Assembly (NCBI GenBank): GCA_019637115.1
Contig: JAHBWH010000009.1
Span: 1-64,000, forward strand
Reading direction: 5' to 3'
DNA from: Myxococcales bacterium
GTDB lineage: Bacteria > Myxococcota_A > Polyangia > Polyangiales > Houyiibacteriaceae
Length of the DNA: 64,000 bases
Every line of letters begins with the position of its first letter. Position 1 is the stretch's first letter. Made by a program: the position numbers and the translations under genes. Positions 30,259-59,081 of the stretch are shown piece after piece. The notes beneath the pieces are model-generated. The model had not been told where the DNA came from and did no database searches. It worked only from the letters and a program-made list of their open reading frames with translations.

Positions 30259-30401
30259 GTGCCCCCAACCCGAAGTTCGTTCCGGGTTGCCGTGGATGAT
30301 CGGCGTGGAGGTCGTTTGCCGCGTTGGACAGGCCGAAGCCTATTCGAGGAGGTCGGCGAGCGAGATCCGCGTCGAGAGCCGCGGATACCCGGAACGAATT
30401 C
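30259..30401. repeat. Palindromic dispersed element, copy A
   Basis: 143 bp starting GTGCCCCCAACCCGAAGTTC, with interior GAGGAGGTCGGCGAGCGAGA. Its left arm is the exact reverse complement of the right arm of copy C over about 27 nt. The right arm is cut short after GGATACCCGGAACGAATTC, and the stop codon of the gene at 30400-31431 lies at that edge. Confidence 0.85.
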
Positions 30402-31431
30402 AGTACGGACGACGAGGGACCTGATCGCCCCGGGCCAGGAGGACCAGGTGCTCGTAGACGTGTCCGGCGCGCTCGAAGACGATCGACGTGTGTCCTCTCG
30501 TCCGAAGCGCTGCCAGCGCGTCGACCGCGTCGGAGGAGGTCTGGACGGGTCGCCCCCCGACCTGGAGCATGATGTCGCCGTCTTGCAACCCCATGCTCGC
30601 GAGCACGCTCACGTCGTGGACCCCGAAGACCTGCACGCCAGCGGAGCCGTCCTTGGCGAGCGCGGGCGACATGCGCGTGGTGCCGGGCCAGGCGATCGCG
30701 AGCGCCGCCTCCGAGACCTCGAAGCTCGGTGCCGGCGCGATCGCGCCCATCGTCACGGTCTGGCCACGCAGGTACTCGACGAGCGTGTCGAAGGGCAGAC
30801 TCGCGCTCCCCGCGGGAGCCTCGTCCGACCCCGCCAGGGCCGAGTCTCCCGACGGGAGCGCGACGGCCACGAGCGCGCCGCTCGCGAGCGCCGCCGCGGT
30901 GGCCCCCGCGGCGCGTGCGCGCGCTCGTTCGACCCAGCTCGGAGGCGGGCAGTCTGCCGTCACCACGCGTCCATCGCGCCGACGTCGGAGGCGCACGCAA
31001 GGGCCCTCACCCGCGCGCGCGCTCGCGAGGAGCGCCTCGGCCTCGGCCGTCGTCATCGACGCGAGGTCGTAGACGTCCTGGTCGCACCGCCGGCAATGAC
31101 GCACGACGTCGTCACCCGCCATGTCCTCCCACCGCTCGCGACAGGGCGTCGCGATGCGCACGCGTGCGAGCACCGACGTCGCGCTCTCGCGCAGCGCGGA
31201 GTCGACGTGCTCGAGCTCCTGGCGGAGGAGATCCGCTTGCTCCGCTGCGCGCTCGGCCCATTCGAGGGACGCGCGCACGCGACGTCTCTTGGCGAGCAGG
31301 ACGTCTCGCGCGTCCCGATAGGGCCCAGCCTCGTCCACCCGCGAGGCGCCGGTCGCGTCCGCCGCGGAATCCTCCGGGCCGCGCTCGGCGCTGGTCCTCA
31401 CGCTCGCCTCGTGTCGATCCCTCTCGCTCAT
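30400..31431 (-). CDS. Cys-motif protein with membrane segment and PDZ-like domain
   Basis: 343 residues: a helical N-terminal region, a Cys motif domain with PCRERWEDMAGDDVVRHCRRC and YDLASMTTAEAEALLA (a small domain repeatedly found in myxobacterial proteins), one transmembrane segment at about 175-190, and a C-terminal PDZ-like fold (DGDIMLQVGGRPV). It probably sits in the inner membrane with the PDZ part outside. The stop codon falls at the edge of repeat copy A, and the start lies only 10 bp from a MITE whose end supplies TAGAAT 6 nt before the ATG. Confidence 0.65.
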   Translation of the reverse strand: MSERDRHEASVRTSAERGPEDSAADATGASRVDEAGPYRDARDVLLAKRRRVRASLEWAERAAEQADLLRQELEHVDSALRESATSVLARVRIATPCRERWEDMAGDDVVRHCRRCDQDVYDLASMTTAEAEALLASARAGEGPCVRLRRRRDGRVVTADCPPPSWVERARARAAGATAAALASGALVAVALPSGDSALAGSDEAPAGSASLPFDTLVEYLRGQTVTMGAIAPAPSFEVSEAALAIAWPGTTRMSPALAKDGSAGVQVFGVHDVSVLASMGLQDGDIMLQVGGRPVQTSSDAVDALAALRTRGHTSIVFERAGHVYEHLVLLARGDQVPRRPY

Positions 31432-31437
31432 GTGGGC

Positions 31438-31443
31438 ATTCTA
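31438..31443 (-). promoter_or_regulatory. -10 box formed at the MITE edge
   Basis: TAGAAT on the minus strand, 6 nt before the ATG at 31431. Its first bases (TAG) are the terminal bases of the MITE. Confidence 0.4.
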
Positions 31444-31597
31444 GCAGCCCGTTGAAGAACCTAGTTCTTCAACGGAGCCGCGTGTTTTGGGGGAGGCTCC
31501 GGTGGGCTTTGCCCACTGGAGGGGGTCTTTCCGAAAGACCCCAGGAAGAAGAGGCAGTCCGTTGAAGGACTCGAAGAGTTCTTCAACGGGCTGCTAG
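31441..31597. mobile_element. MITE-like element with 20-bp perfect inverted repeats
   Basis: 157 bp bounded by CTAGCAGCCCGTTGAAGAAC and its exact reverse complement. It contains internal hairpins (GGTCTTTCCGAAAGACC) and no ORF. These are the features of a non-autonomous DNA transposon. No transposase with these ends is present in the window. Confidence 0.85.
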
Positions 31598-31716
31598 ACA
31601 ACCTCGGGGACGATCGGTTCCACCCACGCTCGCGCGACCGGCTCGTCGCGACCGAACGATGCGCCCGTGAGCGTCTCGAGGTGACCGACGCCTCGAACCT
31701 CCACGCGCGTAGGCCC

Positions 31717-32613
31717 TCAGATCTCGGAGGTCGGGTAGTGCACCCAGGGCGCCCGGCGTAGCCGAGAGGGGCCACGCCACGGGTGGGAGAACGCGAGGAT
31801 CGTGCACGTGCCGCCCGGTCGCACGCCACGGCTCGCGAGCCAGGCGTGGGCGTCTTCGAGGCGTTCGTCGATCGCGAAGCACGCGAGCTCGTCGTCGGCG
31901 AGCGCGTGGGCTCCCTCGCGCAGGCGCGCGCCGAGGCCAGGCGTCCACTCCGCCGGGCTCCACGGGAGGTGGACGAGGGGCCAGGGGGCGCCGCTCGAGA
32001 CGAGGCGAAACTCCTTGGTGCCGACGTTGCGCACGACGGAGGGGCGGGGCCCGGGTCGACCGAGATCCACGCCCTCGGCGAGGGGACCGGGGCCGTCGTC
32101 GAGCCCGCGCAGCCGCGCGGGTGGCTCGAAGAAGACCGAGAGCACCGCGAGCGGCGAGGCCATGCGCCCAGGGTGCTGGCCGCGAAACGTCTCTCGGAGG
32201 TCGCCGCGCTCGCCGCGCATCGCGGCGCCGAAGGCGAGGTCCCAGCGGGGCAGCGCAGAGCCGAAGAAGGCGAGACGGAAGCCGCTGATGAAGAGCTTCC
32301 GCGCGACGCCCTGGCCGCGCGCCTCAGGCGCGAGCTTGAGGTCCCCTCCGTAGAAGACCGAGAAGACGCGGCCGTCGACCGGGCGCGCCTCGCGCACCGC
32401 CGCCGCGCAGATGCCGACGAGCCGCTCCCCCTCGAAGCCGACGAGGAAGCGCGCGTGCCCGAGCCCTTCGAAGAACGCCGCGTAGCGCGGGCCGTGATCG
32501 ACGAAGAAGCGATCCTCCGAGAGCGGATACGTGATGCCATCTTCGATCTCGCGCAGCCGCGCCGCGTGCTGCTGCACCGCGTCGCCGTCCATCACCTGGA
32601 AGCGGACCTTCAC
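31717..32613 (-). CDS. GNAT-like acyltransferase
   Basis: About 298 residues: VRFQVMDGD start, a GNAT-like core with LVGFEGERLVGICAAAV followed by LKLAPEARGQGVARKLFI, which resembles the acetyl-CoA binding motif A, and an unusual C-terminal domain of about 130 residues. The GTG at 32613 forms a GTGA overlap with a micro-ORF that itself overlaps the upstream BtaA-like gene. The open frame runs further upstream to 32970 through the 36-bp repeat array, so a longer N-terminus with DVDARVEGVGVA repeats cannot be excluded. Confidence 0.65.
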   Translation of the reverse strand: MKVRFQVMDGDAVQQHAARLREIEDGITYPLSEDRFFVDHGPRYAAFFEGLGHARFLVGFEGERLVGICAAAVREARPVDGRVFSVFYGGDLKLAPEARGQGVARKLFISGFRLAFFGSALPRWDLAFGAAMRGERGDLRETFRGQHPGRMASPLAVLSVFFEPPARLRGLDDGPGPLAEGVDLGRPGPRPSVVRNVGTKEFRLVSSGAPWPLVHLPWSPAEWTPGLGARLREGAHALADDELACFAIDERLEDAHAWLASRGVRPGGTCTILAFSHPWRGPSRLRRAPWVHYPTSEI

Positions 32614-32879
32614 GCGCGTCGATCCTTGCGCCCGCGCGGCGCGACACGCGGCGTCCACGTCGGCCACGGCATCGGCGTCCACGTCGGCCACGCCGACGCC
32701 CTCCACGTCGGCCACGCCGACGCCCTCCACGTCGGCGTCCACGTCGGCCACGCCGACGCCCTCCACGCGGGCGTCCACGTCGGCCACTCCGACGCCCTCC
32801 ACGCGGGCGTCCACGTCGTCCGCATCAGCCAGGCCGACGTCCTCCCCGACGGCCGCGGCGCGCGCGACGTCGACCTCAT
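32610..32879 (-). CDS. Repeat-encoded micro-ORF (WPTWTP repeats), doubly overlapping
   Basis: An 89-codon ORF starting ATGA-overlapped with the stop of the BtaA-like gene (32876) and ending GTGA-overlapped with the GTG of the acyltransferase (32613). Its product consists mostly of repeats such as AWRASAWPTWTP from the 36-bp array. The precise 4-nt overlaps on both sides look like translational coupling, but the composition suggests it may be only a ribosome pass-through or a frame left by repeat expansion in the acyltransferase gene. Confidence 0.35.
   Translation of the reverse strand: MRSTSRAPRPSGRTSAWLMRTTWTPAWRASEWPTWTPAWRASAWPTWTPTWRASAWPTWRASAWPTWTPMPWPTWTPRVAPRGRKDRRA
32650..32825. 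repeat. Degenerate 36-bp tandem repeat array
   Basis: Units based on GCGTCCACGTCGGCCACGCC followed by GACGCCCTCCAC, four to five copies with internal partial units, at the junction of the acyltransferase and BtaA-like genes. Confidence 0.8.
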
Positions 32880-33802
32880 CGGCGCACCGCGACGGTGACG
32901 CGCTCGTAGAAGAGGCTGCGGTCGCGCGCGAGCAGGCCCTCGCCGAGCGCCTCGTCGACCGCGAAGCCATCGAGGAAGTCCGCGAGCGCGCGCTGGTTGT
33001 TGAGCTGCCGGATCGTCACCGCCGCGCCGGGCCTCAGCGCGTGGAGGGCCCGCCCCCAGCGCGCGACGGTCGCGTCGGTCGACCAATCGAAGATGTTCGA
33101 GAGGTGGACGAGATCGAAGCGGTCGAGCCCCGCGACGTCGGGCAGCTCGCCGTGGGTCACGTCGAAGTCGAAGCGACGCCGCGCGCGGAGGTGGGGGAAG
33201 GCGTCGCGGCCGAGGTAGCGGCCGAGGAGGACGTGCTGCAGGAAGGGGTTCGACGGTCCGTCCGAGCGCGCGAGCCCGAGCTCGAAGCGCCGCCGGAAGT
33301 AGGCCGGGTACGAGCCTGGCGTGGCGTGCTGCACGGCGTCGGGGCCGAACATCGCGACCAGCAAGGTCTCGGTGAACGTCGCCTCGAAGACCGCCGGCCA
33401 ATAGCGGTGCGTCATCCAGGCGCGCGCGCGCGAGCGGTCACCCGCGAAGTACGCCTCGCGCTCGTCCGCGTCGGCGACGAGCGCGCCCATCGCCTCCCGC
33501 ATCACCTCGAAGAGGCGCTCGAAGGCGCCGCATTGCGAGAGCCCCTCGCGGCGGTCGTCGTCGACGTTCAACGCCGCGAGCTCCCCGGCCGCGATGGCGT
33601 CCGCCTTGCGCTCGACGTGCGCCAGCTGATGAGGGTTCGCGTCGTAGAGCGAGAGCTTCACGTCGGGGAGCGCGTGGGCCATCGCGAACGCCGTGCATCC
33701 CCCGGACGCCACGAGCAGCACCCGGCGCGCGCCGAGCCGCCGCGCGACCTCGATCTCGATCTCGGGATCTTCGCGGACCACCGCGAACTTCAGCTCGTCC
33801 AT
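32876..33802 (-). CDS. DUF3419/BtaA-like SAM-dependent aminocarboxypropyltransferase
   Basis: 308 residues, no signal peptide. RVLLVASGGCTAFAMA and LSLYDANPHQLAHVERK form a SAM-binding motif and the acidic loop typical of DUF3419, the family of BtaA, which transfers the 3-amino-3-carboxypropyl group of SAM to diacylglycerol in betaine-lipid synthesis. ...VHLSNIFDW and RQLNNQR near the end are also family-like. No BtaB methyltransferase is adjacent; a GNAT-like enzyme is, so the lipid headgroup may be acylated instead of methylated (inference). TATCCT lies 9 nt before the ATG. Confidence 0.75.
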   Translation of the reverse strand: MDELKFAVVREDPEIEIEVARRLGARRVLLVASGGCTAFAMAHALPDVKLSLYDANPHQLAHVERKADAIAAGELAALNVDDDRREGLSQCGAFERLFEVMREAMGALVADADEREAYFAGDRSRARAWMTHRYWPAVFEATFTETLLVAMFGPDAVQHATPGSYPAYFRRRFELGLARSDGPSNPFLQHVLLGRYLGRDAFPHLRARRRFDFDVTHGELPDVAGLDRFDLVHLSNIFDWSTDATVARWGRALHALRPGAAVTIRQLNNQRALADFLDGFAVDEALGEGLLARDRSLFYERVTVAVRR

Positions 33803-33811
33803 CCGCGGTCG

Positions 33812-33817
33812 AGGATA
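33812..33817 (-). promoter_or_regulatory. -10 box of a probable leaderless promoter
   Basis: TATCCT on the minus strand, 9 nt before the ATG at 33802 of the BtaA-like gene. Confidence 0.45.
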
Positions 33818-33905
33818 CCGGAGCCCTCGCCCCCGCCTCCATCGAAGACTTCGATGGTAGATATCACGATTTTCCGAATCCCTTCGGCGGTACGCCTTCC
33901 CTAGG

Positions 33906-35606
33906 ATGATGAGCGGGATGTCGTCGCTGCCGCCGATGGGGAGCGCGGTGCCGAGCACCGTGGCGAGCCTCTTTGTGTCGAACGCCCGCGTCCGGCCGGA
34001 CGCGCTGGCCGTCGCGGACGCGCGCGTCTCGTGGACCTATGGGGAGTTGCTGGTGCGGGTCCAGCGCCTCGCGGCGTGTCTGCGCGCTTGCGGAGTCGAC
34101 CCCGGAGACCGCGTCGCGGTGCTCTCGCGCAACCGCGCGGAGTACCTCGAGGCCTTTCTCGCGAGCGCGTGGATCGGCGCCATCGTGGCGTGCCAGAACT
34201 GGCGACTGGCCGACGCCGAGCTCGCGCATTGTCTCGACCTCGTCGAGCCGAAGCTCCTGCTCGCGTCGCCGGACGAGGCGCCCCGGCTGGCCACGCGAGG
34301 CGAGCCGACGCTCGTCTTCGGTGAGGCGTACGAGCGCGCGCTCGAGGAGGCGAGCCCGAGCGCGCTGCGCCCGCCGTCTCGCGCGTGGCGAGATTCGCAC
34401 GTCGGCCGACGCGCCGACGATCCGGCGTTCGACGATCCGGCGTCCGACGATCCAGCGTCCGACGACCCAGCGTCCGACGACCCAGCAGGCGGAGATCCGC
34501 GCCTCCACCCCTTCCCGCTCGACCCCGAGACGCCGCTGCTGATCCTCTACACGAGCGGCACGACGGGCTTGCCGAAGGGCGCGGTCGTCAGCCACCGCGC
34601 CGAGATCGCCCGCAACCTGGTGCTGCGCGCGGAGTTCGGCATCGCGGCCGCAGACGCGTACGTCGCGTGGAGCCCGCTCTACCACATGGGCGGCGCCGAG
34701 TATTCGCTCGGCACCTTGATGAGCGGCGGCGCCGTGCACGTCGTCGACGGCTTCGACGCCGAGCGGCTCGCGGACCTGGCCGAGGCGCACGCCATCGGGT
34801 GGCTGCTCCTGATGCCCGGCATGGTCGGCCGCTTCGCGGACCTGCTCGAGTCGCGCCGCGGGTGGAGGCCGCGCGGCGTGAAGGTCTGCGGCGTGATGGC
34901 GGACCTCGTGCCCCCCGCGGACATCGCGCGCATCACGCGGCTGCTCGGCGCTCCCTACGCCAACACCTTCGGCGCGACCGAGACCGGCTGCCCGCCCTGC
35001 TCGTCGAGCCTGCTCCCGATCGGTGTCGAGCCCGAGCGGCTCTCGAAGGAGCAGAGCCCCTTCTGCGAGGTCCGCCTCGTCGACGAGCACGACCGCGACG
35101 TCCCGATCGGCACCCCCGGCGAGCTGTGCATGCGCGGGCCGACGCTCTTCAGCGGCTATTGGCGCGCCCCCGACGTCAACGAGGAAGACTTCCGCGGCGG
35201 GTGGTTCCACATGGGGGACGTCTTCGTCCGTAACCCAGATGGGACCCTCGACTTCGTCGACCGGCGGAAGTACCTGATCAAGTCGGGGGGTGAGAACATC
35301 TATCCGGCGGAGATCGAGCGGGTGCTCCTGCACGAGCCCGGCGTGGCCGAGGCCGCGGTCGTACGTCGCGCCGATCCGACGTGGGGCGAGGTGCCCATCG
35401 CGTTCGTCGCGCGCGCGAGCGACGACGCGGGCGACGAGGTGACGGCCGAGGCGCTGATCGAGGCCTGCCGCGCTCGGCTCGCGAGCTACAAGAAGCCCCG
35501 CGACGTGATCTTCCTCGCGTACGAGGACTTCCCGCGCAGCGCCTCGGGCAAGGTGCTCCGGCACGAGCTCGAGGCCCGCGCGGCCGCCCCGAAGGAGCCC
35601 GCATGA
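33906..35606 (+). CDS. AMP-dependent acyl-CoA synthetase
   Basis: 566 residues of the ANL superfamily: P-loop TSGTTGLPKGAVVSH, A5-type motif FGATETG, YWRAPD, A8 hinge region DRRKYLIKSGGENIYPAEIE and the catalytic Lys in SASGKVLRHE. It would activate a carboxylic acid as acyl-AMP and then the CoA thioester. A stretch of five DDPAS/DDPAF repeats (about 170-195) interrupts the N-terminal domain, from a 15-bp tandem repeat. It is the first gene of a five-gene catabolic operon. Start is ATG 33906 or the ATG at 33918, which has TAGGAT 10 nt before it. Confidence 0.9.
   Translation: MMSGMSSLPPMGSAVPSTVASLFVSNARVRPDALAVADARVSWTYGELLVRVQRLAACLRACGVDPGDRVAVLSRNRAEYLEAFLASAWIGAIVACQNWRLADAELAHCLDLVEPKLLLASPDEAPRLATRGEPTLVFGEAYERALEEASPSALRPPSRAWRDSHVGRRADDPAFDDPASDDPASDDPASDDPAGGDPRLHPFPLDPETPLLILYTSGTTGLPKGAVVSHRAEIARNLVLRAEFGIAAADAYVAWSPLYHMGGAEYSLGTLMSGGAVHVVDGFDAERLADLAEAHAIGWLLLMPGMVGRFADLLESRRGWRPRGVKVCGVMADLVPPADIARITRLLGAPYANTFGATETGCPPCSSSLLPIGVEPERLSKEQSPFCEVRLVDEHDRDVPIGTPGELCMRGPTLFSGYWRAPDVNEEDFRGGWFHMGDVFVRNPDGTLDFVDRRKYLIKSGGENIYPAEIERVLLHEPGVAEAAVVRRADPTWGEVPIAFVARASDDAGDEVTAEALIEACRARLASYKKPRDVIFLAYEDFPRSASGKVLRHELEARAAAPKEPA
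34416..34490. repeat. 15-bp tandem repeat inside the acyl-CoA synthetase gene
   Basis: Five units of GACGATCCGGCGTTC-type sequence, in frame, encoding DDPAF/DDPAS repeats. Confidence 0.85.
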
Positions 35607-36454
35607 AGCCGACGACGTCGCTCTGTCACGCCACCGCCGACGACGTCGTCGTCCACGGTCGCAGCTTGCCCCGCGAGCTCATCGGCAAGCGCAGCTTCAC
35701 CGAGATGATCTTCCTGCACCTCACGGGCGCCGAGCCGACGCCCGCGCAGGCCGCCGTGCTCGACGCGTGCCTCGTGACGCTGATGGAGCACGGCCTGACG
35801 CCGACGGCGGTGAGCACGCGCCTCACCTACGGCAGCGCGCCGGAGGCCATGCAGGGCGCCATCGCCGCGGGCCTCTTGAGCGTGGGCAGCACCTTCGTCG
35901 GCACCACCGAGGGCTGCGCGGCGCTCCTCGCGCGGATCGTCCGCGCGAGCGATCCGGACGCCGAGGCCGCGCGTGTCGCGCGCGAGAGCCGCGAGACGAA
36001 GGCGCGCCTGCCCGGCTTCGGCCACCCGCTGCATCGCCCGGTCGATCCGCGGACCGTCGCCCTGCTCGCGCTCGCGCGCGCCGAGGGGCTCTTCGGCGCA
36101 CACTGCGAGGCGCTCGAGCGGCTCTCTGCCGCGGTCGACGAGGGCGCGGGGCGGGCGATCCCCGTCAACGCGACGGGCGCCATCGCCGCCGTCCTCCTCG
36201 ACGCGGGCGTCCCCGCCGAGATCTTGCGCGGCGTCGCGCTCATCAGCCGCTGCGCCGGGCTCGTCGGCCACGTCCGCGAAGAGCAGACGAAGCCCTCGAT
36301 GCGCGCGCTCTGGGAGGGCGCCGAGGCCGCCGTGCCCTACGTCGCCGACCCCCATGCCGCCGGCCGCCACGCCGCTGGCCCGCATGCTGCCGTCGCGCCG
36401 CCCAACGACGACGCTCCGAACGCCACCACACGACCCGCCGAGGAGGAGACATGA
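35603..36454 (+). CDS. Citryl-CoA lyase-like (citrate synthase superfamily) protein
   Basis: 283 residues, shorter than citrate synthase. LIGKRSFTEMIFLHLTG, the LTYGSAPEAMQGAIAAGLL segment, GFGHPLHRPVDPRT with the conserved His region, and ATGAIAAVLLD match the citryl-CoA lyase/CcsA-like subgroup of the citrate synthase superfamily, which splits or forms C-C bonds of CoA esters. The C-terminus is a low-complexity His/Ala-rich tail. It overlaps the acyl-CoA synthetase stop by ATGA, so it probably handles the CoA ester made by that enzyme. Confidence 0.8.
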   Translation: MKPTTSLCHATADDVVVHGRSLPRELIGKRSFTEMIFLHLTGAEPTPAQAAVLDACLVTLMEHGLTPTAVSTRLTYGSAPEAMQGAIAAGLLSVGSTFVGTTEGCAALLARIVRASDPDAEAARVARESRETKARLPGFGHPLHRPVDPRTVALLALARAEGLFGAHCEALERLSAAVDEGAGRAIPVNATGAIAAVLLDAGVPAEILRGVALISRCAGLVGHVREEQTKPSMRALWEGAEAAVPYVADPHAAGRHAAGPHAAVAPPNDDAPNATTRPAEEET

Positions 36455-36987
36455 AACCTGCGACCCACCGCCCCACGGGAATCCAGGGGCTCCACCACAA
36501 CGCCTACCGCTGCCGCGACTCGGAAGAGACGCGCGAGTTCTACGAGGACTTCCTCGGCTTGCCGCTCACCGTCACCCTCGAGCTCGGCGCGACGAAGACG
36601 GGGCGCTCCTGCCAGCACCTCCACACCTTCTACCAGATGGACGACGGCAGCTTCCTCGCCTTCTTCGAGGCGCCGGACATGCCCTTCGAGTTCGAGGATC
36701 ACCACGACTTCGACCTGCACATCGCGCTCGAGGTCGAGCACGAGCACATGCTCGCGATGAAGGAGAAGGGGGAGCGCCTCGGCATGGAGGTCCGTGGGAT
36801 CTCGGACCACGGCTTCATCGACTCGATCTACTTCCGTGACCCCAACGGCTACGTGATCGAGCTGACGAGCCGCAAGCGGAACCACGACGAGGCCACCGAC
36901 CCCTCGCAGAACCGGGCGCGCGAGAAGCTCGCGGCGTGGCAGCGGACGAAGCGCGCCGCGAACGACACGCACGCCGAGAGCGCGTGA
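36451..36987 (+). CDS. VOC-family protein (glyoxalase/dioxygenase fold)
   Basis: 178 residues with paired beta-alpha-beta modules: LHHNAYRCRDSEETREFYEDFLGLPL at the start and SIYFRDPNGYVIELT near the end. His (LHHN), His in DLHIALEV and Glu in YVIELT are in the usual metal-ligand places. VOC enzymes in aromatic catabolism can be extradiol dioxygenases, isomerases or glyoxalase-like. ATGA overlap with the upstream gene; AGGAGG lies 5 nt before the start. A basic/acidic C-terminal tail follows the fold. Confidence 0.85.
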   Translation: MKPATHRPTGIQGLHHNAYRCRDSEETREFYEDFLGLPLTVTLELGATKTGRSCQHLHTFYQMDDGSFLAFFEAPDMPFEFEDHHDFDLHIALEVEHEHMLAMKEKGERLGMEVRGISDHGFIDSIYFRDPNGYVIELTSRKRNHDEATDPSQNRAREKLAAWQRTKRAANDTHAESA

Positions 36988-37184
36988 ACGGCGCGCGTGC
37001 ACCCGTTTCGCGGCGGTCCGCACGCAACATCGGACCGAGCACACTCCGCCGCTCGCGCGCCCGCGCCACCATGAGGTACGCAGCCACGCACGAGCGCCCC
37101 TCGGGCGAAGCCCCGCAGCCTTCGGGCGAAGCCCCGAGCATCCAACGAATCGAACGACGACAGCGAACGACCGGAGAACGAACG

Positions 37185-37871
37185 ATGACCATCCACCTGC
37201 ACATGCTCCCGCCCAGCGTGAACAACCTCTGCGTGCGCGTCTTCCTGCGCGCCGCGGGCCTGCCCTACGAGGAAGAGAACGCCTGGGGCAAGACCCGATC
37301 GCCCGAGTTCATGGCGAAGATCCCCGCGCACCTCACCCCCGCGATCGAGCTCGACGCGCACCCGCGCGGCGCGATGTGGGAGAGCTGCGCGATCATGATG
37401 TACCTCTCGAACCTCCACGGCCTCGAGAAGCTCTACCCGAAGGACCCCGGCCGGCGCGCGCTGGTCGACTCCGCGAATTTCTACCTGACGAGCACCCTCT
37501 ACCCGCTCGTCTCGCGCGCCACCTACCCGCGCCTCGGCTTCCCTTGCTACCCGGGCGAGGTCGCGGCGACCGAAGACGCCCCCGCCGCGCTCAAGGCGGA
37601 GGCCCGCCAGGCCGCCGAGGACGCGCTCGCCGAGCCGCTCGAGGTCTTCCGCTCGTACTTCGTGCGCGACGGCTTCATCGGTGACGGCGAGCACCCTTCC
37701 ATCGCCGACATCCGCTTGGCGGCGACGCTCGAGTTCCTCGCGATGAACGACACGCCCGTCCCGCAATGGGCGCAGGACTACCTCAAGCGCGTCGAGGCCG
37801 CGCTCGGGTCCGCCTACAGCGAGCCGGCCGCCGACGTCCGTGGCTTCGTCGCGCAGGTGAAGGCGGCCTGA
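37185..37871 (+). CDS. Glutathione S-transferase family protein
   Basis: 228 residues with an N-terminal thioredoxin-like half (LHMLPPSVNNLCVRVFLRAAGLPYEE, then LTPAIELD and the WESCAIMMYL segment carrying the Glu-Ser pair for glutathione) and a helical C-terminal half with HPSIADIRLAATLEFL. In an operon with a homogentisate-dioxygenase domain it could act as the maleylacetoacetate isomerase, although it lacks a clear zeta-class SSCX(W/H)RVRIAL motif. The start has a GGAG 8 nt upstream. The 197-bp gap before it contains a duplicated 20-bp CTCGGGCGAAGCCCC-type repeat (about 37098-37136). Confidence 0.8.
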   Translation: MTIHLHMLPPSVNNLCVRVFLRAAGLPYEEENAWGKTRSPEFMAKIPAHLTPAIELDAHPRGAMWESCAIMMYLSNLHGLEKLYPKDPGRRALVDSANFYLTSTLYPLVSRATYPRLGFPCYPGEVAATEDAPAALKAEARQAAEDALAEPLEVFRSYFVRDGFIGDGEHPSIADIRLAATLEFLAMNDTPVPQWAQDYLKRVEAALGSAYSEPAADVRGFVAQVKAA

Positions 37872-37874
37872 GCC

Positions 37875-40943: not shown

Positions 40944-40989
40944 CCGCACACCGACCCACGGTCGCCGGGGACGTGCGTTCATCCGGTCG

Positions 40990-41120
40990 CTGGGGTCGGC
41001 GCCACCGACATGGAGTGCGGGAGAGCGACCGCGTGTCGAGTCGGCGGACGTCGGCGCCTCGAGGACGCCGCCTCGAGGACGCCGCCTCGCGGACGCCGCC
41101 TCGAAGACGCCACCGCGAGG
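40990..41120. repeat. 15-bp degenerate tandem repeat (CGAGGACGCCGCCTC)
   Basis: Several near copies between about 41055 and 41120, in the 192-bp gap after the fusion gene and before the small lipoprotein. No gene is recognised in the gap. Confidence 0.6.
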
Positions 41121-41135
41121 ACGCCGGCCTCGGCG

Positions 41136-41300: not shown

Positions 41301-41358
41301 GCCGCACGTATACGCGCATCGCGAGGCATTTGCCCCCTCGCGCCCCGCAGAGGTGGGT

Positions 41359-42129
41359 TCAGGGGCGGCGATGCGCGAAGAGGTTCAGCGCCAACGCGTG
41401 CACCCACTCGTCGCGGTCGCGGCGCAGGTGCACGAGGAGGTAGCCGACTTCGAGCCGGGAGCTCGCGCCGATCGCGATCGAGGCGCCAGCGAAGAGCCGG
41501 TTCTGGTCGTATCCGCGGCGGGCGCCCCACTCCGTGCCGTTGAAGCCGACGAAGAGCTCGTCCCAGAGCACGGCGCCGACCGCGCCGCGCGTCCAGCCGA
41601 GCCGCACGAATTGGCGGAGCCGATGCCCCACCCCCTCGCCCGGCCCGAAGCGCTGCTCGGTCCGCGTGCGCGACTGGAGGCTCACCCCGCGGCCGAGCTC
41701 TCCCGCGACGATCGCCTGCTGCCAGCTTCGGTGCTCGTCGCGCCGGCTCGCGTTCGAGTCGTCGAAGAAGGGAACCCACGCGTAGCCCGCGTGCAGGCTC
41801 AGCCACGGCTTGGCCCGGAATCCCACGGCCGGCCGAAGGATGAAGAGCGTCCCGGCGTCGCCGCGCCGCAGGTGGGTGTCGAGCCAGAGGCTCGCGCTCG
41901 GGGCCTCTTGGCCGAGGTCGGCGCTAGCGATCACCCCAGCCCAGACGGCGAGGTCGCGGGTGGACTCGGGGGCCTGCGCCGCACCCACGCTGGCGGTGAG
42001 CGAGGAGGTCAGGAGAGCGAGGAGTGCCCCCAACCCGAAGCCCGTTCGAGGAGGTCGGCGAGCGAGATCCGCTCCCTTGGCCGTGGATACCCGGAACGAA
42101 GTTCGGGTTGGGGGCGCTGAGATGCGCAT
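41359..42129 (-). CDS. DUF2490-family outer-membrane protein with repeat-derived N-terminus
   Basis: 256 residues. After the signal core LLALLTSSLTASVGAAQA the body shows the DUF2490 pattern: EHRSWQQAIVAGELGRGVSLQSRTRTEQRF, HRLRQFVRLGW, LWDELFVGFNG and YDQNRLFAGASIAI, as in outer-membrane barrel proteins of this family. The N-terminus MRISAPPTRTSFRVST... up to GLGA is encoded by palindromic element copy B. Removing the element would leave MRIS directly joined to the hydrophobic core, a normal signal peptide, so the element appears to have inserted in frame just after the start. Confidence 0.75.
   Translation of the reverse strand: MRISAPPTRTSFRVSTAKGADLARRPPRTGFGLGALLALLTSSLTASVGAAQAPESTRDLAVWAGVIASADLGQEAPSASLWLDTHLRRGDAGTLFILRPAVGFRAKPWLSLHAGYAWVPFFDDSNASRRDEHRSWQQAIVAGELGRGVSLQSRTRTEQRFGPGEGVGHRLRQFVRLGWTRGAVGAVLWDELFVGFNGTEWGARRGYDQNRLFAGASIAIGASSRLEVGYLLVHLRRDRDEWVHALALNLFAHRRP
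42024..42117. repeat. Palindromic dispersed element, copy B (internally deleted)
   Basis: 94 bp with both arms (GTGCCCCCAACCCGAAG ... ACGAAGTTCGGGTTGGGGGC) but missing about 55 bp of the left half. The deletion joins two GAAG-containing sites present in the full copies. It lies within the 5' coding region of the DUF2490 gene. Confidence 0.85.
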
Positions 42130-48744: not shown

Positions 48745-48745
48745 C

Positions 48746-50167: not shown

Positions 50168-50315
50168 CACACCTCCGACACACGACACAGTCGCCCGTCA
50201 TGAATAATAACGATCTCGTCATGTCACCAGTGCCCGGGTGGTGAGGGTCGCGGCCGGGGTGAAGGCTCACGGTTGTCGGGCATCCCACCGCCATCATGGG
50301 AGTGCCGGGGCGTGG

Positions 50316-50321
50316 TAAGCT
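50316..50321 (+). promoter_or_regulatory. -10 box of a probable leaderless promoter
   Basis: TAAGCT, 5 nt before the GTG at 50327 of the lipoprotein gene. Confidence 0.4.
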
Positions 50322-50326
50322 GAGGC

Positions 50327-51880: not shown

Positions 51881-51918
51881 CCCGGCCGCGACTGATCCGG
51901 CCGCGACTGATCCAGGCT
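51868..51918. repeat. 15-bp tandem repeat over the lipoprotein stop codon
   Basis: Three near-identical units of CGCGACTGACCCGGC type (CCGCGACTGATCCGG). The first supplies the stop of the gene at 50327-51880. Confidence 0.65.
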
Positions 51919-51931
51919 GGTCCTGGCGCGA

Positions 51932-52483
51932 TCATCCGCAGGCGACGCCGCACACCATCGTCCCGTCGGGGCAAGTCACCCCCGCCGGCGCGCCGTCATC
52001 GGGGCCGCAGTTCAGCGAGCACGAGGCGTTGGTCCCGCACACCACCACGCAGCCGCCGGTGCACTTCACGTTGCAGCTCGACGAGTCCGTGCACTCGACC
52101 CGGCTCCCCGGCCCGAGGTTCAGCTTGCAGTCGGACGAGTCACGACACGAGACGAGGGTCTCCCCCGTAGTCTTCAGGTCGCAGTCGGACGAGTCCTCGC
52201 AGGCCAGCTCACCCGACTCGACGTTCGCTTTGCACTCGGTCGAACCCACGCAACGCAGGAGGACGCGCTCGCCCGAGCCGTTGCACTTGGCGTCGCCCTC
52301 GCAAAGCAGATCGCACGTCCCCTCGCAGGTCGTGTTGCAGTCGTCCGTGCAGGCACACCCTGCCGCGTCGTCACATGCGCACGCGCCCGCGCACGTCGCC
52401 CGGCCGGGAGGTTCGCTGCTCCCGCACCCTACCAAGCCGAGACCGGACACCAGCACCGCCAAACCGAAAGCAATCGTTCGCAT
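51932..52483 (-). CDS. Cys-rich lipoprotein
   Basis: 183 residues: signal peptide with lipobox GLVGC, then about 28 Cys in short repeats such as CACDDAAGCACTDDC, CTEC-like and DSSDCDLKTTGETLVSCRDSSDCKL. It resembles secreted multi-disulfide proteins of myxobacteria. GAGGT lies shortly before ATG 52483. It is convergent with the gene at 50327 and divergent from 52724. Confidence 0.7.
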   Translation of the reverse strand: MRTIAFGLAVLVSGLGLVGCGSSEPPGRATCAGACACDDAAGCACTDDCNTTCEGTCDLLCEGDAKCNGSGERVLLRCVGSTECKANVESGELACEDSSDCDLKTTGETLVSCRDSSDCKLNLGPGSRVECTDSSSCNVKCTGGCVVVCGTNASCSLNCGPDDGAPAGVTCPDGTMVCGVACG

Positions 52484-52723
52484 GGTCACCTCGAACTCTG
52501 AAGACCTCGTCATCCTGCCAAATACCCGCTCGAAGGGACGTCAGGGGTTCCCTCTCCGCGACCGCGCTGCGCTCCACGACCGTGAGCTCGCCCCACGGCG
52601 CACAGACCAACAAAGCCGGAAGATTTCGTCATCACTGTGATCTCGTCGTGTTTCGACTGACACGGGATCACCCGATGGACCCGTTCGTCGGACGTCGTGC
52701 CACCCTCCGACGTGGAGGTCAGG

Positions 52724-54235
52724 ATGCGACTGGAGCTCGACTCGACTCGTGTGGTCACGCGCTTCCCCGAGGTGCTCGCTGCGTTCCTCGCGGTGACGTT
52801 GGTGGCGTGCAGCTGCAACGGCGACGACCCAGCGCCGCCCGACGGCGGCGACGCCGCGAGCTGCGCGCCGATCGGCGCGAGCTGCGCAGAGGTCGCTTGC
52901 TGCACCGGCGCGCTCTGCGAAGGTGGGGTCTGCGTCGAGGAAGGGCCGTGCGCGGCGCTCGGCGCGAGCTGCGCCGACGAGGCCTGTTGCAGCGGTGGCG
53001 TCTGCGAGGACGACGTCTGCGTCGAGGAGCCTTGCGCGGAGCTCGGCGAGGCCTGCGGCGACCTGCTCTGCTGCGGGGAGGGGCGCTGCGAGGACGCGCT
53101 CTGCGTCTCGTGCAGCAGCGATGGGCGGTCGTGCGCCGTCAATTCCGATTGTTGCTCCGAGCTCTGCGACGGCGGCCGGTGCACGACGGGCGTCGACTGC
53201 GGCCTGGTGGGCACCGCCTGCGCCGAGGACGGCGACTGCTGCGCGGGCGCGTGCACCGAGGGCGAGTGTGTCCCGCCCCCGGTCGACTGCGCGCCGCTCG
53301 GCTCGGCCTGCGCGAACGCGGGCGCGTGCTGCTCCGGCAACTGCGAGGGCGGCGCCTGCGCGACCTCCCCGGGATGCCGCCCTGCTGGGGAGACCTGCAC
53401 CGACGACTCCCAATGCTGCATCGGCCTGTGCTCGGACGGCCTCTGCGCTGCCTCCGGCGCGTGCCGCGTCGCGGGCGAGCCCTGCGGGACCGAGGGCTTG
53501 AGCGGCTCGTGTTGCTCGACGCTCTGCCTCGACGCCACGGGCAGCGGCGTCGCCACGTGCCAATTCCTTGGGGGCTGCCGCGTCGTCCGGGAGGTCTGCA
53601 CCCGCGACAGCGACTGCTGCTCGGGCTCGTGCGCGGCGTCGGGGACGACGTCAGACGGCCGGCCCATCATGCGCTGCGAGCGGACCACGTCGTGCCAGCA
53701 GCCTGGCGAGACGTGTGCCTTCGGCGGCTCGAGCTCGAACTGCTGCCCGAGCGGCGGCGGCCGACGAGGGTGTGAGCCCGCCGGTATCGGCGTCTCCCGG
53801 TGCGTCGGCGGAGGTCGCTGCGAGGCGCTCGCGGGCGACGCATGCGAAGCCGACGCGGACTGCTGCCCAGAGCCCCCTGGCCTTCGCTGTCGCCCGAGCG
53901 TGGCCGCGGGGGGCGCCGACCGCTGCTGCCTGCCCGACGGAGAGACGTGCGCGTTCGGCGACCTCTGCTGCGGCGGCGTCTGCACGCCGGACTCGGAGGG
54001 CGTGCTCCGCTGCGGGTCGGCCTGCGTCCCGGACGGCGGGTCCTGCACCACCGCGCGCGACTGCTGCGGCTGCGCCTGCGTGAGCGGCACGTGCTCGAGC
54101 GATCCGGCCGATTGCAGCGAGTGCACGCTCGGGCAGCTCGGCGACTTCTGCTCGACCACGGCCGAGTGCTGCAACGCACCGCCGGTCTACTGCAACTCGG
54201 ACGTGGCCGAGTTCTCGACGTGCGTCGTGCGCTGA
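52724..54235 (+). CDS. Lipoprotein with about twelve DKK-like Cys repeats
   Basis: 503 residues with lipobox VTLVAC and a very high Cys content. Repeats of the pattern C..LG.SC....CC.G.LC..G.C (CAPIGASCAEVACCTGALCEG, CGLVGTACAEDGDCCAGACTEG) resemble the Dickkopf-type N-terminal Cys module or a knottin fold. Such arrays are expected to be rigid stalks, binders or protease-resistant surface rods. GGAGG 6 nt before ATG 52724 decides the start over the in-frame GTG at 52697. The remnant at 45740-45960 looks related. Confidence 0.75.
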   Translation: MRLELDSTRVVTRFPEVLAAFLAVTLVACSCNGDDPAPPDGGDAASCAPIGASCAEVACCTGALCEGGVCVEEGPCAALGASCADEACCSGGVCEDDVCVEEPCAELGEACGDLLCCGEGRCEDALCVSCSSDGRSCAVNSDCCSELCDGGRCTTGVDCGLVGTACAEDGDCCAGACTEGECVPPPVDCAPLGSACANAGACCSGNCEGGACATSPGCRPAGETCTDDSQCCIGLCSDGLCAASGACRVAGEPCGTEGLSGSCCSTLCLDATGSGVATCQFLGGCRVVREVCTRDSDCCSGSCAASGTTSDGRPIMRCERTTSCQQPGETCAFGGSSSNCCPSGGGRRGCEPAGIGVSRCVGGGRCEALAGDACEADADCCPEPPGLRCRPSVAAGGADRCCLPDGETCAFGDLCCGGVCTPDSEGVLRCGSACVPDGGSCTTARDCCGCACVSGTCSSDPADCSECTLGQLGDFCSTTAECCNAPPVYCNSDVAEFSTCVVR

Positions 54236-54239
54236 TGGC

Positions 54240-55151
54240 TCACGGCGTCGCGTAGCGGCGCCACGCGCGCTCGGAGGGCGAGCGGACGAAGATGGCCGCG
54301 AGGCCCAGCCCCCCGACCGCGGTGGTGCCCGTCGCGATCGCCGCGCCGAGGTGCGTGTCGATGCGCGAGCGTGCCGTGAAGCCGATGAGCACGGCCGTGG
54401 CCACGAGGTTCAGGGCGCCGAAGACGCCGCCGAAGATGCGGCGGCGACGATCGCGCGCGGCGGCGGCTTCGAGGGCGCGCTCGCTGGCCTCGAAGGCCGT
54501 CGGCGTCAGGCCGGCGGCGCGTGCGGCGACGAAGTCGTCGTAGTTCTGGCGCGCGTCGCGCGGGCCGCGCGGGCGCGCGAACCCTCGGTAGGCGATCACG
54601 GCGAGCGTCGCCGCTCCGACGAGGCAGCCGACGCCGAGGACCAGGTCGACCGTGCTGGGGTTCCGCTCGAGCAGGTGGTCGAACGCGCAATAGGCCTCGA
54701 AGACGGCGACGACCAGCGCGCGCTGGGCGGCGAGGAACGAGACCGGATCGAAGGCGAGCGCGGCGTACTCGAGCGAGTACGCGAGGCGGTCGACGTCGGT
54801 GGAGGGGAGCGTGAGGCGGACGGGGCTGGAGTGTCGCGCCGTGTCGACGTCCGAGCCCACGCCCAAGACCGCGTCCGAGCCCGTGGAGACGGTGTCCGAG
54901 CCCGCTTCCGAGACCGCGTGGGAGACCGTGGAGACGGTGTCCGAGCCCGCCGCGTGGGAGACCGTGGAGACGGTGTCCGAGCCCGCCGCGTGGGAGACCG
55001 TGGAGACGGTGTCCGAGCCCGCGTCCGAGGCCGCGTCCGTGGTTTCCGGGTCGGGAACGACCCCGTCCTGCGCGTACGCCGTGGGGGTCGACAGCGCCAG
55101 CGCGAGGAAGAGGCTCACGCTTCTAGCCCGAAGCTCGTTCCGGGTTGCCAT
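54240..55151 (-). CDS. Exported membrane protein with tandem-repeat linker and repeat-derived start
   Basis: 303 residues from ATG 55151: signal core SVSLFLALALSTPTAYAQ, a linker of three 12-residue SDTVSTVSHAAG repeats, two transmembrane segments at about 175-195 and 250-300, and helical parts between. No family is recognised. The chosen ATG lies inside palindromic element copy C; the frame continues through the whole element to ATG 55298 (MALASRAS), so the original start was probably there and the element inserted in frame between it and the hydrophobic core. Confidence 0.6.
   Translation of the reverse strand: MATRNELRARSVSLFLALALSTPTAYAQDGVVPDPETTDAASDAGSDTVSTVSHAAGSDTVSTVSHAAGSDTVSTVSHAVSEAGSDTVSTGSDAVLGVGSDVDTARHSSPVRLTLPSTDVDRLAYSLEYAALAFDPVSFLAAQRALVVAVFEAYCAFDHLLERNPSTVDLVLGVGCLVGAATLAVIAYRGFARPRGPRDARQNYDDFVAARAAGLTPTAFEASERALEAAAARDRRRRIFGGVFGALNLVATAVLIGFTARSRIDTHLGAAIATGTTAVGGLGLAAIFVRSPSERAWRRYATP
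54882..55020. repeat. 36-bp tandem repeat in coding sequence
   Basis: Three near-perfect 36-bp units starting GTGGGAGACCGTGGAGACGG at 54918, 54954 and 54990 with a partial unit before, in frame in the linker of the minus-strand gene. Confidence 0.85.
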
Positions 55152-55276
55152 GGATGATCGGCATGCAGATCGTTTGCCGCGCGGACGAAGGACGGGCCAA
55201 AGCCGACTCGAGGTCGGCGAGCAAGATCCGCAGCGAGGGCCGCGGATCCCCGGAACGAACTTCGGGTTGGGGGCAC
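55126..55276. repeat. Palindromic dispersed element, copy C (full length)
   Basis: 151 bp from AGCCCGAAGCTCGTTCCGGG to CCCGGAACGAACTTCGGGTT then GGGGGCAC. Orientation equals the other copies, upstream of and within the 5' coding region of the minus-strand gene at 54240-55151. Confidence 0.9.
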
Positions 55277-55448
55277 TTGCGCGGCTCGCGAGGGCCATGA
55301 CGCGCTCGGTACGCGCCGACCGCCCCCGCGTCAACCGCATGCGTCCCGCGGTCCGCTCCGCTGGCCGCTCGCGAGCGGGGCAGAACCTCCCTCAGCGCGC
55401 GAGGATCATCGTCGTCTCGGCTTCGCCAGCAGCGGCGGCGCGCGGGTA

Positions 55449-55511
55449 TCACTCGAAGCGCACGAAGTCGTGCGGACGAACGTCAAAGGGGTCTCCGTCA
55501 TCGTGATTCAT
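55449..55511 (-). CDS. Possible 20-residue peptide with strong ribosome-binding site
   Basis: ATG 55511 follows AGGGAGG by about 8 nt, one of the best Shine-Dalgarno sites in the window, and opens a 20-codon acidic peptide beginning MNHDDGDPFDVRPHDF and ending in VRFE. No hydrophobic core. It could be a leader or regulatory peptide, or a coincidence; no downstream gene is close. Confidence 0.3.
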   Translation of the reverse strand: MNHDDGDPFDVRPHDFVRFE

Positions 55512-55716
55512 GTCGGTCCTCCCTGTGCTCACCACGACCTCCACCTGAGCACACCTCATGCCACCGAGCCTCGCCGCGGAATGTCGCGCTTTCGCGGCCC
55601 CACACCTCCACACGTGTAGACACCTGCCTACAGGGCGGACCACGTGAGGGCTCCCGAGCGGGGCCTCTCAACCCCAACGAATCCCGACGCTTACAGTTCG
55701 TTCGCGGCGACGCGGC

Positions 55717-58320
55717 TCATCGCGCCAGCACGTAGCGGTCGCCGACGTGACGGAGCGTGTGGAGGCCGAGCTTGCGGAGCTCACGCACCGCCCCGTGGAC
55801 GCGATGCCGAGCGCGCTCGGGCCGGAGGCGTTCCTCGGGCCATCCGCGCTGCAGCAGGCCCTCGGTCGTCAACCCCTCGACGTGCTCGACGAGCGCCGCG
55901 CACACGCGCCAGAGCACGGCGCGCTGAGATAGATCGACGAAGCGGTCCGCCAACATCACGCCGTCGGGGGTCATCTTCGGCGCGCTCCCATCACGGCGTG
56001 CCCGCCACCGCGCGGCGAGCCGAGCGCGACACCCACCCCGGCGGAGCTCGGCTGGACTCAGAGGGCTCCGGAGCGCCTCCGCGGCCACCCGGGCGCGGGT
56101 CCTCGGCCCGAGCGTCGCGAGCAGGCCGTCCATCCGCGCGCCGTCATCCTCCGCCGCCGCCGCGAAGATCCGCGCGAGGGTCGCCGCGGGCACGTCGACG
56201 CGGTCGAGCTCCCGCGCGACGTCCTCGAGCGCGGTGGCCGCGCCGCCGTCCTCGAAGAAGCGCAGGAGCGCCTGATCGAAGCGGGCGTAGAGGACGCTGC
56301 GATCGACCCCCGAATCCTCGGCGAGTCGAATCGCGAAGTCGACGGCGCCTCGCGCGCCCTCGACGTCCCCCATGTCGAACGACAACCAAGCCCGCGCGAG
56401 CTGGAGGAGCGGCACGAGGCGGGCGCCCACCCCGCGTCGCTCCGCCTCCGCGATCGCGCGCTCGGCCGCGTCTTGGTCCCCGAGCTCGACCAGGATCCGC
56501 GCGAGGTTGGTCTCCGCCGTGAACGCCGCGCGCGCGAGCCCGAGGCTCCGCAGTCGCTCGAGCGCGACGGTCGACAGGCGCGCCGCCTCGTCGAGCTCCC
56601 CACGCGCGAGCTCGACGAGACCGAGCGAGGCGCCGATGTGCGCCTGACCGTCGAAGAGCGCGTGCGCGCCAGCGGCGGCGAGCGCGTCGCGCAAGAGTCG
56701 GTGCGCCACGTCGAGATCTCCGCGCTGGGTCAGCGCGGTCGCGAGCCCCGTCGTCGCCTGCGCCTCGAGGCGAGGGTTCTTGGTCGACCGAGCGCACTCG
56801 AGGGCGCGGTCGAAGCTGAGCTTCGCGGCGTCCAAGTCTCCACGCTCCAGGAGGAACGCCCAGCCGACCTCTCGGTGGACCTCCCCCTCGAGCCGCACGT
56901 CGCTCCCCGCGGACACCCACGCGAGCGCACGCCGGAGGTCGGCGTCCGCGCCCTCGGTGTCCCCGGTGACGCCACGCATGCGGCCGCGGAGCGCGAGCAG
57001 GCGCGGCGCGGAGGGGAGCGCCACGTCGGCCCCCAACACGCGGTCGATCGCCCTTCGGAGTCGATCGATCGGCCCGTGCTGCAGAAGGAACGGACCCACG
57101 ACGAGCAGAGCGGCGGCGCCCTCCGCCGTGGGGCCGCGGCGCTCGATGACGGCGATGAGGTTCTCCCGCTCGCGCGGGGCCATGGTCTCGTCCGCGTGCC
57201 CGACGAAGTACGCTGCGTGCGCCTCCTCGGCGGCCTCACGCGTTGCGTCGTCGAGCTGCGCCGTCGCGTACGCACGCACCGCCTGGTAGAGCTGGAAGCG
57301 ACCGGCCTCCACCCGCAAGAGCGACCGACGCCGAAGCGACTCCAAGGTCTGCGCAGCGTCCGAGGTTCCGATGACCGCCTCCGCCGCGGGTAGCTCGAAC
57401 CCACCCCGGAAGACCGTCAGCCGCGCGAGCGCCCGACGCTCCTCGTCGCCACACAACGCCCAGCTCGCCGCGACCGCGGCGTCCATGCTCGCGTGGCGCG
57501 GCGGTCGATCGCGCCGCACCGCACGGAGCTGCTCGCTCTGCGCCTCGAGCCTCGAGAGGAGTGCTCGCGGACCGAGCACGGACGCCCTCGCCGCGGCGAG
57601 CTCGATGGCGAGCGGGACGTAGTCGAGCCACGCCAGGAGCTCGTCGAGCCCATCCTCCCGCGCGTCGGGTCCCGCGCGGGTCCGGTAGAGCGCGCGCGCG
57701 TCCGCGAGCGCGAGCGCGCGCACCTCGACGACGCGCTCGGCGTCGAGCGCGAGCGGCTCGCGCGCGGTCGTGACCACGTTCAAGCTCGGCAGGGTCGCGC
57801 GCCACCCCCGCACGGCGTCCGCCAGGCACGTCACGACGGCGTCGGCGTCGTCGAGCACGACGAGCGCCGGTCGCTTCCTCGCGAGCACCACGTCGATGTC
57901 CTTCACCGGACAGCCCAGCGCCGCCGCGAGCGCGCCGGAGACGTCGTCGGGGGTTCGCGCGTCGACGAGGTCGACCACGACGCTCGGGGTCCTCCGGAGC
58001 GCGAGCAAGCGCGCGAGCGCGCTCTTGCCGATCCCCGGGGTGCCCACGAGGCTCACGAGCGCGGGTCCGGCGCGCACGTACGCCTCGAGCTCCGACATGA
58101 GCGCCGCTCGCCCGACGAGCTCGGGCTCCGGTGTCGCCACACCGAGCGTGTGCGCGAGCGCGATCACGTCGTCGCGCAGGTAGAGCCGGTACGCGTTCGT
58201 CGGGTGACGGCTCGCGCGGAGCTTCCCCGCCTGGTCCCAGCGTCGCAGAGTCTTCGTGCTCACTCCGAGCAGCTCCGCGGCCTCTGCGACGGTCAGCACG
58301 GCCCCCTGCCTCAGCGACAT
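55717..58320 (-). CDS. Large regulator: MerR-type HTH, NB-ARC-like ATPase, TPRs, C-terminal winged helix
   Basis: 867 residues. Residues 8-50 form a MerR-type HTH (VAEAAELLGVSTKTLRRWD). An ATPase domain has Walker A GTPGIGKS (93-100), Walker B ALVVLDDADAV (about 150) and VVTTAREPLAL, as in AfsR/NB-ARC STAND proteins. From about 430 to 700 there are helical repeats of TPR type, and the last 70 residues (VHGAVRELRKLGLHTLRHVGDRYVL) resemble an OmpR-type winged helix. STAND regulators act as ligand-triggered switches. TATCGT lies 7 nt before the ATG with no Shine-Dalgarno sequence. Confidence 0.8.
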   Translation of the reverse strand: MSLRQGAVLTVAEAAELLGVSTKTLRRWDQAGKLRASRHPTNAYRLYLRDDVIALAHTLGVATPEPELVGRAALMSELEAYVRAGPALVSLVGTPGIGKSALARLLALRRTPSVVVDLVDARTPDDVSGALAAALGCPVKDIDVVLARKRPALVVLDDADAVVTCLADAVRGWRATLPSLNVVTTAREPLALDAERVVEVRALALADARALYRTRAGPDAREDGLDELLAWLDYVPLAIELAAARASVLGPRALLSRLEAQSEQLRAVRRDRPPRHASMDAAVAASWALCGDEERRALARLTVFRGGFELPAAEAVIGTSDAAQTLESLRRRSLLRVEAGRFQLYQAVRAYATAQLDDATREAAEEAHAAYFVGHADETMAPRERENLIAVIERRGPTAEGAAALLVVGPFLLQHGPIDRLRRAIDRVLGADVALPSAPRLLALRGRMRGVTGDTEGADADLRRALAWVSAGSDVRLEGEVHREVGWAFLLERGDLDAAKLSFDRALECARSTKNPRLEAQATTGLATALTQRGDLDVAHRLLRDALAAAGAHALFDGQAHIGASLGLVELARGELDEAARLSTVALERLRSLGLARAAFTAETNLARILVELGDQDAAERAIAEAERRGVGARLVPLLQLARAWLSFDMGDVEGARGAVDFAIRLAEDSGVDRSVLYARFDQALLRFFEDGGAATALEDVARELDRVDVPAATLARIFAAAAEDDGARMDGLLATLGPRTRARVAAEALRSPLSPAELRRGGCRARLAARWRARRDGSAPKMTPDGVMLADRFVDLSQRAVLWRVCAALVEHVEGLTTEGLLQRGWPEERLRPERARHRVHGAVRELRKLGLHTLRHVGDRYVLAR

Positions 58321-58327
58321 CGAAACG

Positions 58328-58333
58328 ACGATA
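58328..58333 (-). promoter_or_regulatory. -10 box of a probable leaderless promoter
   Basis: TATCGT on the minus strand, 7 nt before the ATG at 58320. Confidence 0.4.
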
Positions 58334-58403
58334 GCAACCCTCCCGAGAGATGCGAGCTTTCCTCACGAATTACGTATACTCCGGCCGTGAATGACGCTCG
58401 CGT

Positions 58404-59081
58404 TCAGCGCACCGTTCGGGTCGCCGTGAGGATCCATCGTCCGAGGTTCACCTCATCGTGGCGCTCGTCGCAGGGGAGGTCGACGTGGTAGCCGAGTCGC
58501 GCCGTGCCCCCAACCCCTGCGGGACGGTCCACCGTCTCGTCCTGTCGATACCGGTGCGCGCCGATCTCGAAACGGAGCGTGTCCGTGCGGGCGGCGAGCA
58601 GAGGCTGCCGGGTCAACAAGCCGCTCGCCGAGGGCACGATGGCGGCCACCGGTGCGATCGACGTCACGAAGAACGTCCCTTGCGACTCCGCCTCCGTCGG
58701 CCCGTCCAGCTCTCCTTCGCACGCCCCCAGCGCATCTCGCCACGCCTGACCACGAGAGTCGGTTCCGACGCGCAGGACTCGGTCATATCCGCCGTTCACG
58801 AAGGCCATGAGCGACCAGACGAGGACGATGACTGGAAGGCAGATGACCGCCTCGGCGAAGACACCCCCGCGCTCACAGTCCAAGAGCCCCTCTCTGGAGC
58901 CCACACCCCGAAGCTCGTTCCGGGTTGCCGTCGATGCCCGAGGACGTTCGCCGCGCCGACGGAGGACTGGCCGAGGCCGATTCGAGGAGGTCGGCGAGCG
59001 AGATTCGCGTCGGCGACCTCGAATACCCGGAGCGGACTTCGGGTCGGGGGTACCAAGTTCGCTTTTGCCGTCGCGCTCCAT
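58404..59081 (-). CDS. TadE-like pseudopilin with in-frame repeat insertion
   Basis: 225 residues. GGAGG 8 nt before ATG 59081 supports this start (MERDGKSELG). The next ~50 residues (TPDPKSAPGIRG ... TATRNELRG) are encoded by palindromic element copy D, then the TadE-type segment GSREGLLDCERGGVFAEAVICLPVIVLVWSLMAFV with its Gly before a Glu-containing hydrophobic helix, followed by a periplasmic domain. The normal TadE N-terminus is short, so the element has enlarged the cytosolic leader without breaking the frame. It is the last gene of the Tad-like operon. Confidence 0.7.
   Translation of the reverse strand: MERDGKSELGTPDPKSAPGIRGRRRESRSPTSSNRPRPVLRRRGERPRASTATRNELRGVGSREGLLDCERGGVFAEAVICLPVIVLVWSLMAFVNGGYDRVLRVGTDSRGQAWRDALGACEGELDGPTEAESQGTFFVTSIAPVAAIVPSASGLLTRQPLLAARTDTLRFEIGAHRYRQDETVDRPAGVGGTARLGYHVDLPCDERHDEVNLGRWILTATRTVR
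58905..59053. repeat. Palindromic dispersed element, copy D (full length)
   Basis: 149 bp from CACCCCGAAGCTCGTTCCGG to GGAGCGGACTTCGGGTCGGG, in the coding region of the TadE-like gene; interior GAGGAGGTCGGCGAGCGAGA is shared with the other copies. Confidence 0.9.

Follow-up and report, generated by a model that had tools for sequence, protein, structure and literature searches.

ERIC/IRU repeats of Enterobacteria (127 bp) and YPAL/RU-2 repeats of Yersinia (~168 bp) are palindromic, high-copy and mostly intergenic sequences with stem-loop transcripts, and for ERIC no transposase has been recognised (PMC2229807). Rickettsia palindromic elements (RPE) are also palindromic and dispersed, with lengths of 105-146 bp (PMC2229807). 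RUP of pneumococcus and Correia/NEMIS of Neisseria are likewise non-autonomous MITEs of ~105-155 bp with TA ends and terminal inverted repeats. Double-foot and atypical forms of REP exist, and in other bacteria hairpins of this kind are the substrates of RAYT-type transposases (PMC6006769). Here we analysed an element of similar size, palindromic, high-copy and intergenic, in a window of 64,000 nucleotides (the whole stretch of DNA under study) from a Myxococcales bacterium, together with its copies in the rest of that genome and in related genomes.

Copies, boundaries and distribution

The window holds four copies, all with their cores on the + strand and none fully intact, each being somewhat damaged. 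Copy A (30259..30398) has an intact left arm, while its right arm is missing after CCCGGAACGAA; its core match (30284-30390) is complete apart from a 6-bp deletion. Copy B (42024..42117) keeps both arm ends and has 69 bp deleted in the left half of the core. Copy C (55116..55276, with the start at ~55116; core 55142-55251) is near full length, its outer left arm decayed and its right arm intact, and copy D (58897..59053; core 58922-59028) is full-length with both arms degenerate. Three of the four match our covariance model of the core at E-values of 1e-27 to 1e-19, which are rough figures from a home-made model with copies C and D among its building sequences.

The four-copy repeat reported earlier near these positions stands far above chance, since the 25-nt arm, allowing up to 3 mismatches, occurs at 78 sites genome-wide against 0 for the reversed control. 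The many further copies anticipated by the preliminary description for a BLASTN-type check were also found: copy C has 65 matches in its own genome (8.88 Mb, 434 contigs), of which the best 39 apart from itself share 76-90% identity and are mostly nearly full length, and the core model gives 68 matches in the same genome. The canonical unit measures 163 bp, not the ~150 bp first proposed, and consists of ~29-bp arms flanking a 105-nt core, with CTA...TAG as its usual boundaries. It carries no ORF of its own, as had been stated. No arm pair in the examined loci spans more than 182 bp, in agreement with the earlier claim that no transposon has these ends, in assemblies that are mostly draft MAGs, where a transposon may escape notice because repeats frequently interrupt the contigs.

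Among 22 copies with both ends intact, a C stands at -3 in 20 and a G at +3 in 19, and the two bases between C and G match on both sides as TA in four copies, CA in two and TC in one. The bases that follow CTAG vary by lineage (TGC, TAC, ACC, ATG, TAG), which means that no fixed sequence marks the ends. CTAG itself is scarce, with 17 occurrences in the window against ~43 expected. Genome-wide, all of 46 copies fall outside predicted genes, as judged by crude gene calls from a simple codon-usage caller trained on the window, and none of 31 joined flanks has an open coding frame across the junction. Several copies abut or begin at a TAG stop codon, as insertion at CTAG would predict; at one of the copies (L007), the stop position is identical in G008, a genome of the same genus that lacks the element at this place. 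With respect to the flanking genes, the copies point either way (15/10/8/8 across the four arrangements, 46 copies), and 5' and 3' gene ends are used about equally. The proposed concentration at 5' ends did not hold up, and the orientation shared by the four window copies beside minus-strand genes, correct in itself, is a small-sample effect, given the mixture genome-wide.

The neighbours of different copies are unrelated, and the genes that recur beside copies include no transposase and no reverse transcriptase. In a search for empty sites covering about half of the chosen copies (2635 of 4760 nt), joined flanks compared with four relatives matched on one side only and no match spanned the join. 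The many dispersed copies, with their unrelated neighbours and similar ends, make it very likely that the element is mobile, with a putative target duplication.

Relatives with copies are G008 (Prado145), G003 (Sandaracinus NAT131) and G033 (HCUG1432-5), and the core covariance model adds G002, G013, G014 and G018. Beyond the family, the core model detects the element in G057, G059, G061, G171, G178 and G180, which belong to other families of the order, and elsewhere in the phylum it gives weak matches in G256 and G366; a match in G387 lacks the motifs and looks like chance. A second subfamily in G033 (L281-L284, L286, L287) comprises several near-identical copies whose ends are CTAAACCAGAG...CTCTGGTTTAG and whose core is a variant; their near-identity suggests recent activity. 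One hairpin of G005 (L122:1495-1663) has arms like those of the element (CTAGTGCCTCC...CGAAGTTCGTTCC) around an unrelated interior and is missed by the core model.

Fold, strand bias and covariation

The consensus forms one long hairpin, as the preliminary description had envisaged for an RNA-folding check, the + strand reaching -126.5 kcal/mol and the - strand -97. The bias resides in the core as well, which without its arms has a z of -5.3 on the + strand versus -0.1 on the - strand. In each of the 19 copies checked the + strand gives the better fold, whether RNA or DNA energies are used, in a sample drawn by a model search that favours copies folding on the modelled strand. The core consensus contains 8 G-U pairs, which turn into A-C oppositions on the other strand, against only one C-A opposition on the + strand. 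What is conserved falls for the most part in loops (GAGG/GAGAU, GACGnnGGA and UUCGAGGA), and the conserved internal loops of the core are GAGG/GAGAU on the one hand and GACGnnGGA...UUCGAGGA on the other. Because the consensus produced by RNAalifold itself recovered the arms and missed the core, we took the MFE fold of the consensus instead and tested it by counting pairs. Rfam contains no match to the element at gathering score, and a permissive search returned only chance-level matches to long hairpins below that score.

Pair counts support the fold. Over the whole structure, 30 pairs have changed on both sides against 13.2 after shuffling, and the core alone has 9 against 3.2, both comparisons resting on 39 copies aligned with MAFFT by sequence only. 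Across genera and families, 35 of 39 core pairs vary on both sides, and the core covariation score across families is 0.60, with slid partners reaching no more than 0.12; these are approximate figures from an alignment (A4) that was fitted to the model, which inflates the score, and that holds two reverse-strand rows.

Arm sequence varies from species to species, and from one subfamily to another within a genome, yet complementarity is retained, and at least three arm types occur on the same core in the genome of the window. Consensus matches in G008, G003 and G033 mostly end ~10 nt inside each end because the arms there differ while still pairing. The model does not contain the outer flanks, and in genomes that took no part in building it these flanks are complementary (mean score 16.6 versus 3.1 shuffled); in 18 of 21 copies from these genomes they pair better than the best of 2000 shuffles. 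Covariation of the arms alone could stem from template-switch correction of palindromes; the evidence from the core is free of that weakness. The core is conserved as a strand-specific structure, and it appears to be the fold itself that is kept.

Candidate mobilisers and competing explanations

A MITE moved by a DDE transposase has ends that are bound in sequence and a middle that drifts. Here the arms are free and the core is conserved, the reverse of that pattern. A folded single strand recognised by its core is the simplest reading. With a confidence that falls a little short of an even chance, we propose that the repeat, present in Sandaracinaceae and in other members of the Polyangiales, is a non-autonomous MITE/REP-like dispersed element that is recognised in the form of a folded single strand and inserted at CTAG, with a RAYT as the candidate enzyme. 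The active form would be a folded single strand of DNA or RNA, both of which would fit the sequence evidence; a trans-acting factor would read the core fold, the arms would act as a clamp, and insertion would take place at CTAG, between genes. The best candidate for this factor is a transposase of the RAYT type (Y1 HUH) that would work on single-stranded DNA, which we treat as a lead. A more far-reaching claim, that the element is addressed by its core fold (RNA or single-stranded DNA) and not by terminal repeats, that its ends diverge while pairing, and that it forms a new Polyangiales-wide class, is tenable but rather doubtful.

RAYTs occur in all 8 element-bearing genomes of the family, and also in 22 of the 26 family genomes in which no elements were detected. 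Specifically, a RAYT-like protein at L162:1501-2610 (G000:C135:23864-24973) has 14 matches in its own genome and is present in 30 of 34 family genomes. This protein itself matches no Pfam or NCBIfam family; the NCBIfam model REP_Tyr_transpos matches 7 of 10 aligned RAYT-like members (best 1.2e-13), and the RAYT-like profile weakly matches the TnpA-REP structure 4er8 (E 0.03). A lone element arm forms the left boundary of a RAYT-bearing repeated segment at C422 (L033:1480-2408) and C201 (L067:1520-2066); at C422 the RAYT-like gene lies ~0.5 kb beyond the arm, and the C201 contig ends before the gene. A scan of 26 RAYT loci found no flanking element hairpins save the lone arm at C422, to which the arm search adds that at C201, and the RAYT unit was set aside as an autonomous partner and kept as a lead. 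At C422 the element arm adjoins an IS630-like end (CATCTCGACGGCGGTGCACTA). A second conserved palindrome (CTGGCGGCCGCCAGGGATTGGCGGCGGATCCGCCGCCAATCCGCCAGG) lies upstream of the RAYT-like genes (L033:1899-2060, L067:1930-2056) and is a candidate for the cognate REP of the RAYT-like transposase.

The CTA...TAG ends around the arms, in a genome where CTAG is scarce, also fit an IS630/Tc1-mariner MITE, whose arms would be bound as TIRs by a DDE transposase inserting at the TA of CTAG, with the core as a passenger. IS630-family elements duplicate TA, and a preference for TA within CTAG, reported by a paper cited in PMC2170065, agrees with these ends; the pneumococcal MITE RUP is moreover attributed to IS630-Spn1 (PMC3049150). 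The one DDE_3 transposon of the genome is likewise inserted in CTAG and has ends starting with GTGC, and these ends (GTGCACCGCCGTCGAGATG) are otherwise different from those of the element. Of 14 genomes with the element, at least 5 (G003, G013, G014, G018 and G033) have no DDE_3 match; this co-occurrence, incomplete in a search of 179 genomes where G171 and G178 are not listed and may lie outside the sample, speaks against IS630 as the mobiliser. Free arms around a conserved passenger would also reverse what such a MITE is expected to keep, and we consider this origin unlikely. The DDE_3 (IS630-type) transposon, the only one found in the genome, is located at L117 (G000:C391:71159-74587), between short repeats CTAGTCCCCCCTAG and with ends CTAGTGCACCGCCGTCGAGATG.

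The one-strand fold, the G-U pairs kept across genera and the conserved purine-rich internal loops would also suit RNA-based spread, or domesticated copies that work as RNA in processing or stability, the transcript being what is selected, and ERIC and Correia elements do act on transcripts (PMC2229807, PMC3049150). Since the flanking genes are met in either orientation, however, the + strand would be in mRNA only about half the time, and no reverse transcriptase was seen beside copies, which leaves this RNA-based explanation as a whole improbable. An old palindromic repeat without structural selection, its arms kept complementary by template-switch (quasipalindrome) correction, would account for compensatory change in near-perfect arms with no selected function. 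Such correction would erase the imperfect core pairs that are kept (8 G-U versus 1 C-A in the consensus), as well as the one-strand bias and the loops conserved across families, and we hold this explanation to be very improbable. Two further systems were considered and set aside: integron attC sites, as there are no arrays and no conserved core-site ends in other species, and retron msDNA, as there is no msr/msd layout.

Comparison with known repeat families

The element is short, lacks an ORF, and has inverted repeats and many dispersed copies, all of which agree with the broad notion of a bacterial MITE. It resembles ERIC, YPAL, REP and RUP but departs in a defining feature from each narrow family tested, ERIC being compared by description. 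Searches of the literature collection covered here returned no description of it, including in myxobacteria, and together with the Rfam result this supports the preliminary view that no described family in Myxococcota has this sequence. The same view likened it to RPE/REP-type elements and not to a simple IS; a palindromic, high-copy, intergenic, non-IS nature is supported, and the in-frame insertions of RPE and the strict features of REP are missing.

If the proposed reading is confirmed, the element would be a tractable genome-wide repeat selected as a folded single strand, and it would add a structured family absent from Rfam. The covariance model is ready for use, recent copies and related genomes are available, and multi-copy RAYTs provide a candidate enzyme family, all of which would help to test how ERIC/YPAL-like intergenic palindromic repeats move.

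Compared with RPE, the element shows no in-frame gene insertions (0 of 31 joined flanks). With REP/RAYT (TnpA-REP) systems it shares imperfect hairpins, a tetranucleotide foot, a putative strand-specific recognition and the presence of RAYTs in the genome, whereas it measures 163 nt and not 21-65 nt, has the foot CTAG in place of GTAG/GTGG, and is not clustered at RAYT genes. The arms of RUP match a resident IS630 (PMC3049150); for the element no such partner was found, and its arms are not fixed in sequence. In comparison with ERIC and YPAL, again by description, the element is GC-rich, resides in other hosts and has CTAG ends. ERIC has TA ends. Further, the arms of the element differ between species while its structured core is conserved. 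The usual MITE has constrained ends and a drifting middle, and here the reverse holds: the element is of the palindromic-repeat/MITE kind, set apart by a structure-conserved core and free arms.
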